The notes beneath the pieces are model-generated. The model saw only the letters and a program-made list of their open reading frames with translations, made no database searches and was not told the DNA's origin. The position numbers and the translations under genes were made by a program. Of a stretch of 64,000 nt of DNA, positions 58,912 through 64,000 are shown one piece after another. Position 1 is the stretch's first letter. Each line of letters opens with the position of its first letter. The stretch covers positions 1 to 64,000 of the forward strand of contig CAIOOA010000186.1 in the NCBI GenBank assembly GCA_903859815.1, read 5' to 3'. Source of the stretch: an uncultured Methylococcaceae bacterium. Its GTDB lineage: Bacteria > Pseudomonadota > Gammaproteobacteria > Methylococcales > Methylococcaceae.

Positions 58912-59940
58912 TCATTCGCCAGTTAAATGTGCGAGGTGAAATTGGTTGCGCCCGGATTCTTTCGACTTGTTCAGGCAGTTCTCCGCCAACTTGAGCAACA
59001 TTTCGACATTTGCGCCGCGTTCGGGTGTGCCGCCGGCGACCCCAAGGCTAATGGTCAGATGGCAGGCGACTTCGCTTTTTGGGTGGGGAATCTGTAGGCT
59101 TTCAACCCCTGTGCGCACCAACTCGGCGACATGGGCGGCCCCTTCGGGTTGCGTGGCTGGCAGTAAGGCGATGAATCTTTCATCACTAAATCGGGCCACA
59201 ATATCGGAAAGTCGGCGTATCCTTTGCCGAAACACTTGGCTCGCTGCCTTGATGGACTCGTCACCCTTGGGATGCCCAAAATGTTCATTGAAGGCGCTTA
59301 AACGATCAAAATCCATCATCAGCAGTGAAATGGGAATATTGTTGCGGGTAGCCAGGCTCCAAAGCTCTTCGCAGCGTTGCTCAAAGCCGTTACGGTTGAC
59401 TAGGCCAGTAAGAATGTCACGGTTGGAGATTTTCGACATTTCCAAATAAAGCTCGCCCATCTTGGTTTCGTTGGCACGAAGGGCAGCGCTTGCTTTGTCC
59501 CTTTCCTTCTTGCTGAGGTAGGCATAGGAGTGATACCGCACTTTGGCGAGCAATTCCATTTTGTCTGGCAATTTGATCAGATAATCGTTGGCACCCGCCG
59601 CAAAGGCTTGTGCCTTGATCGTCGATTCGGTGGAGCCGGAGAGCATGATGACAGGCATTTCTCGGGTTCTCGGGTGGGCGCGTAAAAACCGGCACAAAGT
59701 GAACCCATCCATCTCCGGCATTAGCACATCGAGCAAAATGACCGTGGGGTCGACCCTTTCCGCCATTTCCAGCGCATTGTAAGGGTCTGGGCAGTAATGC
59801 AGGCTGATGTCGGCCTCGTCGCTCACCAGACGCTGTATAGCCTCGGCAATAAAAGGCCGGTCATCCACCAGCATGATCACAAAAGGGGGCTTGTCCAAGT
59901 CTTGCAAGCTTGCACAGGGCAGGATCAAATCGCTGGACAT
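58912..59940 (-). CDS. wspR: WspR-like response regulator with degenerate GGDEF domain
   Basis: About 342 residues. The receiver domain is complete: MLVDDRPF, phospho-acceptor Asp71 (LLDVLMPEMDG), LSGS and Lys123. The GGDEF domain that follows (about 175-335) keeps the DFD metal motif (Asp210) and the RLSD inhibitory site (243-246), but the active site reads RFSDERF where RYGGEEF is expected. Both glycines are lost and one acidic residue is Arg. It is therefore unlikely to make c-di-GMP but could still bind it. The start at 59940 has GAGGG 9 bp upstream and lies 7 bp from the wspF stop. It is the usual last gene of a wsp operon. Confidence 0.87.
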   Translation of the reverse strand: MSSDLILPCASLQDLDKPPFVIMLVDDRPFIAEAIQRLVSDEADISLHYCPDPYNALEMAERVDPTVILLDVLMPEMDGFTLCRFLRAHPRTREMPVIMLSGSTESTIKAQAFAAGANDYLIKLPDKMELLAKVRYHSYAYLSKKERDKASAALRANETKMGELYLEMSKISNRDILTGLVNRNGFEQRCEELWSLATRNNIPISLLMMDFDRLSAFNEHFGHPKGDESIKAASQVFRQRIRRLSDIVARFSDERFIALLPATQPEGAAHVAELVRTGVESLQIPHPKSEVACHLTISLGVAGGTPERGANVEMLLKLAENCLNKSKESGRNQFHLAHLTGE

Positions 59941-59947
59941 GTCTGTT

Positions 59948-60976
59948 TTACCCTCGCATCGGCCCAGATAACTGGGATTTGACAAAACTCATTAATTCCT
60001 CAGCAATCCCTGTAGGCGGGAGGATTTTTTTGGCTGCGCTCAATTCTATCGCAGCTTTGGGCATTCCATAAACGGCGCAACTATCCTTGTCTTGGGCAAT
60101 GGTAAGCCAGTTGGCGTTATATAGCTTCAATAAACCGGATGCACCGTCCCTGCCCATGCCGGTAAGCAGAACCGCCACCGAGGGTTGGGGCCAGTTTTGT
60201 GCGACACTTTCAAAAAAGACATCCACCGAAGGGCGGTAAGGATATGCCACTGGCTCGACTGTGTAAGCGATGGTTCGTTCGGCGGTTAGCACCATGTGGT
60301 CGTTGGTGCTTGCCAAGAAAACGTGCCCTGGCAGCGGTCTGTCGCCCGTGCGGGCAATATCCACAGGCAATTGGCAGTTTTGGCCTAGCCAACGGGCGAT
60401 CCCATCGGCGAACTGCTGGTCCACGTGTTGCACGACGAAGATGGCGGCGGGGAAATCCTTCGGCAACGAGGATAAAATGGTCACAATGGCATTCGGCCCG
60501 CCGGTTGACGCTCCGATGACCACCAACACAGGCAGTCGGGTTTCTTTCGCTATTTTCTGGATAGAGTTCCCTTTCCCAGCCGTGACGGAAGCAGCAACGC
60601 GTTTTCCAATGGCCTCGACTTTGCGGAGCAATTCGTGTGCACCTAGCTCGTTTCCGGGCAAGGGGACATTGACTACGTCCAATGCGCCCGCCCCCATCAC
60701 CTCAAAAACTTCGGAAATCTGCCTTTCGTAATCCACCGCCACCACTAGGATGGCGCAGGGTGACATTTTCATAATCCGCAGTGTGCAGGCGGTTGCGTCT
60801 GCAACTGGCATCAGCAAGCCCATCAGCAACAGGTCAGGTTTGTCTTGCGCACACATTCGCACTGCCTCGGCGGCATTCTTGGCCACCCATGACAAAACGT
60901 GATGTGGCGCACGGGACAAGATCATGCGGAGGGTCACGACGGCCGACGGTGGCGTGTTGGCGATGGCAATGCGCAT
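59948..60976 (-). CDS. wspF: WspF-like CheB methylesterase with degenerate receiver
   Basis: 342 residues. The C-terminal methylesterase domain is intact: Ser157 (GASTGGP), His184 (VQHVD), Asp277 (TGMGRDGA). The N-terminal receiver aligns with WspF along its length, but the phospho-acceptor Asp is Gly53 (LLLMGLLMPVAD) and the acidic pocket residue before it is Thr (IANTPPSAV). It cannot be phosphorylated in the normal way. CheB-type enzymes remove methyl groups from the chemoreceptor and dampen signalling; this one would be regulated otherwise or constitutively. Two bp separate it from wspE. Confidence 0.87.
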   Translation of the reverse strand: MRIAIANTPPSAVVTLRMILSRAPHHVLSWVAKNAAEAVRMCAQDKPDLLLMGLLMPVADATACTLRIMKMSPCAILVVAVDYERQISEVFEVMGAGALDVVNVPLPGNELGAHELLRKVEAIGKRVAASVTAGKGNSIQKIAKETRLPVLVVIGASTGGPNAIVTILSSLPKDFPAAIFVVQHVDQQFADGIARWLGQNCQLPVDIARTGDRPLPGHVFLASTNDHMVLTAERTIAYTVEPVAYPYRPSVDVFFESVAQNWPQPSVAVLLTGMGRDGASGLLKLYNANWLTIAQDKDSCAVYGMPKAAIELSAAKKILPPTGIAEELMSFVKSQLSGPMRG

Positions 60977-60978
60977 AC

Positions 60979-63234
60979 TTAAGCTTCTCCAATTAAGCTG
61001 GTGACAACGTCAAGCAAAGCCTCGTCATTAAAATTGCCCTTGGTGAGATAATAATCGGCCCCGGCATCCAGGCCCCGCACCCGATCTTCTTCCCGATCTT
61101 TGTAAGACATGATTACCACTGGCATGGATTTCAAAGCCGCATTCTTTTTGATTTTGGAAACCAACTCGATCCCGTTCATCCTAGGCATGTCGACATCAGT
61201 GATGACAAGGTCGAAAGCGCCGCCCCGGGATGCATTCCAACCGTCCATCCCATCAATCGCCACTTCCACCTGATAGCCTTTGTTTTCAAGCAATTTACGC
61301 TCCACTTCCCGGACGGTGAACGAATCATCCACCACTAAAATGCGTTTGACCCGCTTGACATGAGTGGCTGGGGTGGCAAGTTTCCCATGCCGCAGACGGT
61401 TTCTACCTATCAGCCGGTCGATGGACCGGGTCAAATCATCCACATCGATGATCAATGCCGGTGTGCCGTCCTCCAACAAGGTTTCGGCGGCAATGTCGTG
61501 CAACTTGCCCAACCCGGCGTCCAACGGCCTGACGACCAAATTGCTTTCGCCGACAAAACAATCGACCGTGATTCCAAAACGCCCATCCCGGTCACTGACC
61601 ACGACTACATTATAGCGATCACTCGCATCCATGGATGGGGGTAATTCAAGCACTTGGGAAGCGGCTACGATGCCGACAGGTTTGCCGTTGAAATAAAAAA
61701 AGTCATGCCCTTGCAATGAGGATATTTCATGCTGCTCCAAAATCAAAGCCCTTTCCACCCGTGCCAGAGGAAAAACGTAAGCCTCGCCGGCAATTTGGGT
61801 CACAAGCCCCCGCATGACCGACAGGGTCAGCGGCAGTTGGAGTTGGAAATGAGTGCCGTGCCCAATTTCGGAATGGGTCCTGATCGAGCCGCGAATCTGT
61901 TGAAGCGTGTTCAAGACCACATCCAAACCAACCCCACGCCCCGAAATTTCGGTGACCTTGTCCTTAATGGTGAAACCGGGCAGAAACAGAAAGTCGTAAA
62001 GCTCGTTATTGCTCAGACCCGTAGCCACCTCCTCGGGGACCAAGTTGCGTTTGACCACGGTCTTGCGCAATAGCTCGGGGTCTATGCCTCTACCGTCATC
62101 GTCGATGGAGACAAACAACATGCCAGCTTGATGGCGGGCCTCCAGTCGGATGATGCCTTCATCGGGTTTGTCTGCGGTGAGTCTTTCTTCGGGAAGTTCG
62201 ATGCCGTGGTCTATGGCATTGCGCAACAGATGATTCAGCGGCGCTTGCAGTATCTCCAAAATGTCCCGATCCACCAAGGTGTTGAGTCCCGCTATGTCCA
62301 AGCGAACATGCTTGCCCAGTTCACCGGCAATGTCCCTGACCATGCGAGGGAAGCTCGCCACGCCTTCGGCAAAGGGGCGCATCCGGCTGGTGGTGGCTTC
62401 TTTGTAAAGTTGCCGGGACAATTGGTTGGAACGCCGCTCAAAGCCTTCCAGCGAGCGCCACTGGGTGGCAATATTGACGGCGTTGTCAGCACTTTCCCGC
62501 TTGGCAGAGCGCAACAATTCAAGTTCACTGTCTTCCAAGCCGATTTCCTTTAGCCGCCGCTCCAAGCTTTCCAAGTGGTTGGTCAATTCATTTTGACGAC
62601 GGACAATCCGCAACAAGGTATGCACGAAAGGGCCGAGCCGGCGTGATTCGACTAAGAATTCAGCGGCAAGCCCAATCAAACGATCTAGGAGTTCGGCGTT
62701 AATCCGTAGTGCTTTTTCCTCGACCGCATCAACCGCAGCCTGCGGTTCGGAGGGGGGGGGTGGAACGGGTTTGCTTAATTCAACCGCATTCAGGGCCGAG
62801 GCCGGTATAATTTCCTTGGCGGCTAGTTCTTCTTGGCCCAGGCTCATGGAGTTGCGGATGGAGTTTGCCAACTCACTATAAGTGTTGGTGTTTTCAACTA
62901 TCCAGCTTGTAATTTTGGTTTCATCCAATAGGGCAATGCGCGCCAAATGGTCTGCCCCTTTCAGCAGAATATCGATATGTGGGCGCTTCAGTTTCAAACC
63001 CTTCTGAGCCGCTGAAAAACAATCCTCCATGGCATGAGCCAGCACCACGGCGTTAGGGAGGTTGACGATACGGGCGGCACCTTTGATGGAATGGGCTGCC
63101 CGCATCAATGACTGGAGTAATTTTGGATTCAGGTTGTCTCGCTCCAATTCGAGCAAGCCCTTAATGATTTCAGCCGCTTGGTTCTCCACCTCGACACGGA
63201 ACAATTCCACCATGGAAAGGTTGGCCTGGTTCAT
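60979..63234 (-). CDS. wspE: WspE-like hybrid CheA-CheY histidine kinase
   Basis: 751 residues: HPt domain with phosphorylated His48 (MRAAHSIKGAARIV), a Pro-rich linker (about 157-170), dimerisation and ATPase domains (LLRNAIDHGIELPEERL, SIDDDGRGID, ISGRGVGLDVV), a CheW-like domain, and a C-terminal receiver with Asp680 (VITDVDMPRMNG) and Lys (YLTKG). It is the kinase of a Wsp-type pathway, phosphorylating itself on signal from WspA and passing phosphate to WspR and WspF. The linker is encoded by a run of nine C. It overlaps wspD by 4 bp. Confidence 0.92.
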   Translation of the reverse strand: MNQANLSMVELFRVEVENQAAEIIKGLLELERDNLNPKLLQSLMRAAHSIKGAARIVNLPNAVVLAHAMEDCFSAAQKGLKLKRPHIDILLKGADHLARIALLDETKITSWIVENTNTYSELANSIRNSMSLGQEELAAKEIIPASALNAVELSKPVPPPPSEPQAAVDAVEEKALRINAELLDRLIGLAAEFLVESRRLGPFVHTLLRIVRRQNELTNHLESLERRLKEIGLEDSELELLRSAKRESADNAVNIATQWRSLEGFERRSNQLSRQLYKEATTSRMRPFAEGVASFPRMVRDIAGELGKHVRLDIAGLNTLVDRDILEILQAPLNHLLRNAIDHGIELPEERLTADKPDEGIIRLEARHQAGMLFVSIDDDGRGIDPELLRKTVVKRNLVPEEVATGLSNNELYDFLFLPGFTIKDKVTEISGRGVGLDVVLNTLQQIRGSIRTHSEIGHGTHFQLQLPLTLSVMRGLVTQIAGEAYVFPLARVERALILEQHEISSLQGHDFFYFNGKPVGIVAASQVLELPPSMDASDRYNVVVVSDRDGRFGITVDCFVGESNLVVRPLDAGLGKLHDIAAETLLEDGTPALIIDVDDLTRSIDRLIGRNRLRHGKLATPATHVKRVKRILVVDDSFTVREVERKLLENKGYQVEVAIDGMDGWNASRGGAFDLVITDVDMPRMNGIELVSKIKKNAALKSMPVVIMSYKDREEDRVRGLDAGADYYLTKGNFNDEALLDVVTSLIGEA

Positions 63235-63926
63235 TTCAGGTTGTCCTCCATGGCTGTGAACATGACTTCCTCATCAATCAGGCCGATGCTTTTATCGCCA
63301 TCCTGTATTATCCCCCGCGTGAATTTAGTCAAGCTGCGGGAAAGCGAAGCGGGTACGGGCAGAACGTCATCGGGCGCATGACGGTGGTAGCCAAGCACCT
63401 CGTCCACTAGCAATGCGAAGCGGCTTTCTTTGCGGCGCACGACCATCATACGCGGAAACACGCGACGCTTCTCGTCCGGCGTATAGTGGGAATCTTCTAT
63501 GCCTAGCAATTCAGCCATGGAAAAACAAAGTCGCAACTGACCGTGGATGTTGACAATACCCCTTAATATGGCGGATGCGTAATGGGGAAGGCGATGGATC
63601 ATCTCAGGTTGGCAGATTTCGTCAATCAGGCTGATGGGGAGTGAAAGGGCCTCGTTACCCACCCTAAACACCAGAGTCGAAGAATGGGCCAGCCCCCGCT
63701 GTGTTTTTAATGGCTCGGCATAATGGCGACACCACTCGTCAAGATAATCCGGGGGCAAGGAGCGGGATTCGAATATCTTACGCGCCGCCGCCGCAAAATC
63801 AGGACAATTACGGCAATGGACCGTCTCAAGCAATTTGGGGCAACGGTTGGAAGTGTGGCTCCAAACACCGATCCGATTCCAACAATCGTCAATGTCGGCG
63901 CTATGACTGTCCCTATGTTTGTGCAT
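63231..63926 (-). CDS. wspD: WspD-like CheW coupling protein
   Basis: 231 residues. The N-terminal Cys-rich extension (DDCWNRIGVWS, CPKLLETVHCRNCPDF) is characteristic of WspD, and a CheW domain follows (TLVFRVGNEALSLPISLIDEICQ, ILRGIVNIHGQLRLCFSMAELLGI). It links the chemoreceptor to WspE. The ATG at 63926 overlaps the end of the upstream gene by 14 bp. Confidence 0.9.
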   Translation of the reverse strand: MHKHRDSHSADIDDCWNRIGVWSHTSNRCPKLLETVHCRNCPDFAAAARKIFESRSLPPDYLDEWCRHYAEPLKTQRGLAHSSTLVFRVGNEALSLPISLIDEICQPEMIHRLPHYASAILRGIVNIHGQLRLCFSMAELLGIEDSHYTPDEKRRVFPRMMVVRRKESRFALLVDEVLGYHRHAPDDVLPVPASLSRSLTKFTRGIIQDGDKSIGLIDEEVMFTAMEDNLK

Positions 63927-64000
63927 CGTAGCCTCTGGCTAACTTTTCTTCGGCTCGGCGAACTCGTTGGCGGTACAAATCAGCAGCCTTTGCATCGCCT
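63913..64000 (-). CDS. wspC: WspC-like CheR methyltransferase, C-terminal end only
   Basis: The last 29 codons of a gene entering from beyond the window. They end in a helical GDAKAADLYRQRVRRAEEKLARGYDAQT and a TAG at 63913-63915. This fits the TPR-like C-terminus of WspC, which precedes wspD in standard wsp operons. Identification rests mainly on position. Confidence 0.55.
   Translation of the reverse strand, partial: GDAKAADLYRQRVRRAEEKLARGYDAQT

Follow-up and report, generated by a model that had tools for sequence, protein, structure and literature searches.

Wsp chemosensory systems, signaling arrays of the surface-sensing type, have been described as two types, the R-system and the H-system, and a published survey reported them from Beta- and Gammaproteobacteria only (PMC8552884). 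In the R-system of Pseudomonas, Lysobacter and Betaproteobacteria, wspA to wspF are syntenic and wspR comes last; in the H-system of Burkholderia, WspR is replaced by WspH, a response regulator without any GGDEF domain (PMC8552884). In Lysobacter WspF, D53A raised biofilm and turned Wsp on, D53E lowered biofilm, and S155A or H182A behaved like a wspF deletion (PMC9758175). A GGAAF mutant of Pseudomonas aeruginosa WspR has been characterized as catalytically dead (PMC2270323) and, according to unpublished data mentioned there, still binds added c-di-GMP. Response regulators that combine a degenerate GGDEF domain with an I-site include Caulobacter PopA and Campylobacter jejuni CbrR; the latter (SAEKI motif, with Lys at position 4) binds c-di-GMP through its I-site and gave traces of c-di-GMP in E. 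coli (PMC8779298). In the HptB-HsbR-HsbA pathway of P. aeruginosa a receiver controls a PP2C phosphatase whose target is a STAS-type anti-anti-sigma factor (PMC5085249), and Stage-1 F7 chemosensory clusters contain a serine phosphatase along with antagonists of anti-sigma factors (PMC7184735).

The locus reported here lies at the end of the window, the whole 64,000-nucleotide stretch analyzed (positions 1-64000 of the 88.7-kb contig C186), and its host genus is Candidatus Methylumidiphilus (Methylococcaceae), lake methane-eating bacteria. It shares with the R-system the wspA-F synteny, a terminal wspR and an intact kinase and methylation module, but differs in a WspF without the acceptor Asp, a WspR without an active site, two WspA paralogues and a divergent Rec-PP2C/STAS pair. 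Like WspH, its last response regulator is predicted to lack cyclase activity, although a degenerate GGDEF domain is kept where WspH has none (PMC8552884). Its degenerate active site and intact I-site are of the PopA/CbrR type; CbrR, however, has two receivers and no Wsp array, and its c-di-GMP binding is demonstrated, whereas binding by the WspR of this locus would be a prediction from sequence (PMC8779298). The Rec-PP2C adjoins a STAS gene, a putative parallel to HsbR and HsbA, but HsbR doubles as the HsbA kinase and is fed by HptB, while Rec-PP2C lacks a kinase domain and is encoded beside a Wsp array (PMC5085249). Stage-1 F7 clusters, in turn, belong to the F7 lineage with CheY and CheD and not to Wsp, and their phosphatase is not described with a Wsp-type receiver (PMC7184735). 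The initial annotation, made from the window alone, knew of no description of such a variant; a search of literature that included few subscription journals likewise turned up no account of a WspF or other CheB lacking the acceptor Asp, of a WspR with a dead cyclase, or of a Wsp system with PP2C output.

Operon layout and the two altered proteins

With the contig read past the window end, the gene order is wspA1-A2-B-C-D-E-F-R, a full Wsp-type chemosensory set in a single operon whose wspA-F synteny and wspR-type gene place it among Wsp systems. It reaches C186:68792, past the window end, which corrects the initial annotation. The genes and their divergent neighbors are:

58912..59940, minus strand: wspR, Rec-GGDEF protein of 342 aa with a degenerate active site (P. 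aeruginosa WspR 3bre, 288 bits; structure model)
59948..60976, minus strand: wspF, receiver-CheB methylesterase of 342 aa (CheB_methylest, PF01339, E 5e-59; alignments; structure model)
60979..63234, minus strand: wspE, Hpt-CheA-CheW-Rec hybrid kinase (Hpt His, N-box, G-boxes and receiver intact)
63231..63926, minus strand: wspD, CheW-like
63913..64000, minus strand: 3' end of wspC, CheR-TPR (entire gene C186:63913-65187)
C186:65194-65676, minus strand: wspB, upstream, beyond the window
C186:65686-67176, minus strand: wspA2, 4HB-MCP, upstream, beyond the window
C186:67305-68792, minus strand: wspA1, 4HB-MCP, upstream, beyond the window
C186:68914-70188, plus strand: Rec-PP2C, divergent from wspA1 (Response_reg and SpoIIE domains)
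C186:70248-70610, plus strand: STAS protein with a Ser site, beside Rec-PP2C
C186:71532-72644: PAS-PP2C phosphatase, close to the Rec-PP2C/STAS pair

WspE and WspD had been called complete from the window, in agreement with their Pfam domains and the WspE motif residues. Both receptors, WspA1 and WspA2, carry a methylation consensus (receptor site ATIEEQAASS), the CheR methyltransferase (wspC) is present and intact, and the receptors and coupling proteins are intact, so that esterase triad, methyltransferase and methylatable receptor, as in the R-system, are all present as judged from sequence. The residues that set the last two gene products apart, or that bear on their function, are:

60818..60820, minus strand: Gly53 codon of WspF (alignments; PMC9758175)
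59728..59730, minus strand: D71, phospho-acceptor of the WspR receiver (kept in 6/6 species)
59173..59187, minus strand: S252-D-E-R-F256 of WspR, replacing GGEEF (fourth residue Lys or Arg in 6/6 species)
59203..59214, minus strand: I-site R243-L-S-D246 of WspR, equivalent to R242xxD245 of P. aeruginosa WspR (kept in 6/6; PMC2270323)
59344..59346, minus strand: R199 of WspR, equivalent to R198 of P. aeruginosa WspR, the second I-site arginine (kept in 6/6)

The initial annotation had read WspF as carrying Gly53, no acidic pocket and an intact esterase triad, and alignment bears out all three. Gly53 stands in place of the acceptor Asp, at the position of D53 in Lysobacter WspF. The canonical WspF receiver pattern in the alignment is VND, MDLIMP and T; here the pocket reads N7-T8 instead of VND and the beta4 Thr is Ala. 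Since the receiver Lys is already missing from the majority of WspF proteins, only the acceptor, the pocket and the beta4 Thr count as genuine losses. The receiver scores under the Pfam cut-off, the esterase triad S157/H184/D277 is intact, and in a structure model built on shallow alignments both CheB-type domains are predicted to stay folded. WspF is thus, as far as its sequence and model tell, a protein with a folded yet non-phosphorylatable receiver and a retained methylesterase; phosphorylation on a receiver Asp (D53), an R-system trait, would be lost. In a canonical array such a phosphate-blind WspF would mean an array stuck on, because Lysobacter D53A activates Wsp (PMC9758175). Conservation of the alpha4-beta5 face was considered as proof of an interdomain role of WspF and set aside as weak, this face being conserved in intact families also.

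Translation of WspR starts at the ATG at 59940, which its orthologues share, and not at the TTG that opens the longest ORF; the stop lies at 58912. Pfam finds a normal Response_reg and GGDEF, and the best solved relative is 3bre. Alignment to 3bre upholds the earlier description of a normal receiver (D26/D27, D71, S101 and K123 present), an SDERF motif and a retained RxxD I-site. Orthology to WspR is indicated by the Rec-stalk-GGDEF architecture and by a quick tree in which the receiver clusters with Competibacter WspR (SH-aLRT 97). The GG(D/E)EF motif and catalytic residues of R-system WspR are, however, missing: besides having SDERF, the protein has lost Lys215 (PleD K332), which corrects the initial annotation, and also D187, E193, R196, D219, D320 and Y324. 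Altogether 17 of 45 conserved GGDEF positions are changed and 28 unchanged, the three I-site residues among the latter. At that background the chance of keeping 3/3 I-site residues is about 0.23 (p), and I-site retention was therefore rejected as proof of c-di-GMP binding. Structure models, also from shallow alignments, match 3bre and 3i5b and predict that the GGDEF fold is kept (TM 0.93 to the WspR GGDEF of 3i5b). In Ca. M. alinenensis the WspR receiver has Phe for the Ser/Thr at residue 101 and Glu for the first pocket Asp (residue 26), and its phosphorylation may, on sequence grounds, differ from that in sister species.

Distribution and maintenance of the changes

The operon was found in six Candidatus Methylumidiphilus species, and all carry Gly53 and a degenerate WspR motif (SDERF in three, SDEKF in one, TGEKF in two). 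Aligning the Wsp operons of relatives was a check proposed with the initial annotation, and both changes co-occur in 6/6 species. All six genomes are at draft level and those bearing a name are MAGs; the relatives compared were Ca. Methylumidiphilus and uncultured Methylococcaceae MAGs; in a seventh member of the genus the operon was not found, only a distant CheB. Five of the six species have lost the equivalent of K332 and one has lost the metal Asp; the guanine-binding N218/D227 with K327, as well as Glu254, the third motif residue, are kept in 6/6. All wspF and wspR reading frames are open and full length. Pairwise dN/dS was mostly 0.05-0.25 for the WspF receiver and 0.07-0.19 for the WspR GGDEF domain, rough values in that many synonymous distances are near saturation. 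Both altered domains are thus under purifying selection and therefore not decaying, and the possibility held open with the initial annotation, that the changes are confined to one decaying strain, does not apply. Within the genus the WspF receiver is less conserved and faster-evolving than the esterase domain.

Competibacter, the sister and nearest outside lineage, has neither change (WspF DLFMP, WspR RYGGEEF). A survey of relatives, order, class and phylum plus named loci yielded 82 usable WspF loci. Among the 59 WspR-type outputs beside them, the 53 outside the genus all have GGEEF and every catalytic residue, so degenerate WspR stands at 6/6 in the genus vs 0/53 elsewhere. Asp53 is absent in 18/82 loci, all Methylococcaceae: the six of this genus and twelve with a Rec-PP2C output. 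Loci with Asp53 have an active WspR (53), a PP2C (5) or no scored output (6); those without it have a PP2C (12), a dead WspR (6) or an active WspR (0), so that 18/18 lack an active cyclase. In the esterase-domain tree Methylumidiphilus groups with Competibacter (96/79), apart from the PP2C-type Methylococcaceae clade, from which it follows that Asp53 disappeared on three or more occasions; we count 3-4 independent losses, of which just one coincides with cyclase loss. The association of Asp53 loss with cyclase absence is complete, but an independent-pairs test has 3 pairs on supported branches, at which no significance is attainable.

Other Methylococcaceae genera have Wsp-type operons in which wspF is followed by a Rec-PP2C instead of wspR. 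In 12 such loci the acceptor Asp of WspF is gone (MGLD, MGLS, MAMH, MGMQ), independently of the window genus. Wsp-like operons with Rec-PP2C-type receivers after wspF were also seen in Verrucomicrobiota (two loci) and Desulfosudis, on MAG contigs whose labels depend on binning.

Output of the array

Rec-PP2C, which like the repeated Asp53 losses was outside the view of the initial annotation, is transcribed away from wspA1 in each of the five loci whose flanks extend far enough, and STAS adjoins it in four; the window layout is repeated in four further species, one of them without STAS beside Rec-PP2C. Its receiver is of the Wsp receiver family and in a quick tree clusters with wspF-linked Rec-PP2C of other bacteria. 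Domain search detected only Response_reg and SpoIIE in Rec-PP2C, with no HATPase or serine-kinase domain. Between wspA1 and Rec-PP2C (C186:68793-68913) lies a block, AAGTCGTTTATTATAGTGC, that is near-identical in 3/5 species and conserved in part in one more; it is a candidate for a promoter or operator common to the two directions, and the divergent intergenic region gave no match to a sigma-54 or sigma-70 consensus. The STAS protein may also be a target of the nearby PAS-PP2C.

That the altered genes have lost functions and yet been kept suggests that the array has been rewired to another output, probably the neighboring phosphatase. The reading we favor, and hold to be reasonably probable, is that the phosphate-dependent brake and the cyclase were dropped together, that the live output is probably Rec-PP2C, and that WspR is a non-catalytic phospho-receiver. 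On the Ca. Methylumidiphilus stem the diguanylate cyclase output would have been decommissioned and WspF uncoupled from phosphate. WspE would phosphorylate both Rec-PP2C and WspR; Rec-PP2C, as the catalytic output, would dephosphorylate its STAS partner; WspR would have a non-catalytic role, serving as an adaptor or competing for phosphate, which c-di-GMP at the I-site might set; and WspF would set receptor methylation at a fixed rate, not via phosphate feedback. With no cyclase left to run out of control, loss of the brake would be tolerable. In favor of this reading count, besides the survey, selection, Rec-PP2C and Lysobacter results above, the intact kinase, receptor methylation site and methyltransferase, and the absence of both changes from Competibacter. 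Against it, Rec-PP2C could belong to another kinase. Because the Methylumidiphilus cyclase was lost on the same branch and the other Asp53 losses fall in a cyclase-less clade, we infer that phosphate feedback on WspF is required only where the array drives a cyclase, and the same need is predicted for Asp53 itself.

The model put forward in the initial annotation, in which the main output is WspR, as a c-di-GMP receptor gated by phosphorylation, and WspF is simply freed from feedback, is a possibility to be taken seriously, albeit short of probable. A Wsp variant with phosphate-blind WspF and non-canonical WspR does hold at the sequence level, the two changes co-occurring and being maintained, and c-di-GMP binding by WspR is plausible from its sequence: the receiver Asp and I-site R243/D246/R199 are kept in 6/6, GGAAF WspR retains binding (PMC2270323), CbrR SAEKI binds by its I-site (PMC8779298), and about 20 canonical or near-canonical GGDEF domains besides WspR in the genome could supply ligand. 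Against this, I-site retention is not above background, no downstream partner is known, and the model ignores the adjacent Rec-PP2C.

Two further readings are rather doubtful. WspR might do no more than drain phosphate from WspE or act as its scaffold, without any function that involves nucleotides, its GGDEF serving as a dimerization module, as would fit a kept receiver and GGDEF fold with active-site and other conserved positions lost; however, N218/D227, K327 and the I-site persist in 6/6 species, and Phe at S101 in one species is odd for a dedicated sink. With similar reserve we consider that one WspE may feed two receiver outputs: the partner switch of Rec-PP2C, and a cyclase-dead WspR that draws on the same phosphate and is adjusted by c-di-GMP through its I-site. 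In that case c-di-GMP would have turned from the usual product of Wsp into its input, and WspF would be a phosphate-blind set-point esterase. Residual c-di-GMP synthesis, weak or as a heterodimer with another cyclase, is quite unlikely: although Glu254 and the guanine-binding residues are kept, and a Lys at motif position 4 may leave a little activity, given that CbrR SAEKI made c-di-GMP traces (PMC8779298), the fourth motif Glu is Lys/Arg in 6/6, the K332 equivalent and metal Asp are lost in five species and one, and GGAAF WspR is described as dead (PMC2270323). Decay by accident of one lineage, which active-site drift between species (the three motifs; K/R/S/G at the K332 position) and the faster WspF receiver might suggest, is highly improbable and was, like assembly error, rejected on the strength of six species, open frames, kept synteny, low dN/dS and strongly conserved WspE and receptor signaling domains.

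On the favored reading, of a brake and cyclase dropped together, this lineage would be added to the R and H types (PMC8552884), and beside it, in the same family, stands a phosphatase-output Wsp type that has lost the WspF phosphate site too. It would be a natural counterpart to laboratory Wsp work, in which the pathway switches on once control by WspF is lost, except where WspR has been disabled. Takeover by another WspR was also considered and rejected: no second Wsp operon was seen in the genome, the nearest canonical Rec-GGDEF (contig C258) sits among unrelated kinases, and a GGDEF protein on contig C67 is without a receiver and located in a chemotaxis cluster. The same genome encodes a second degenerate GGDEF domain (C227:22373-22852), which reads FGENEY and has no RxxD.
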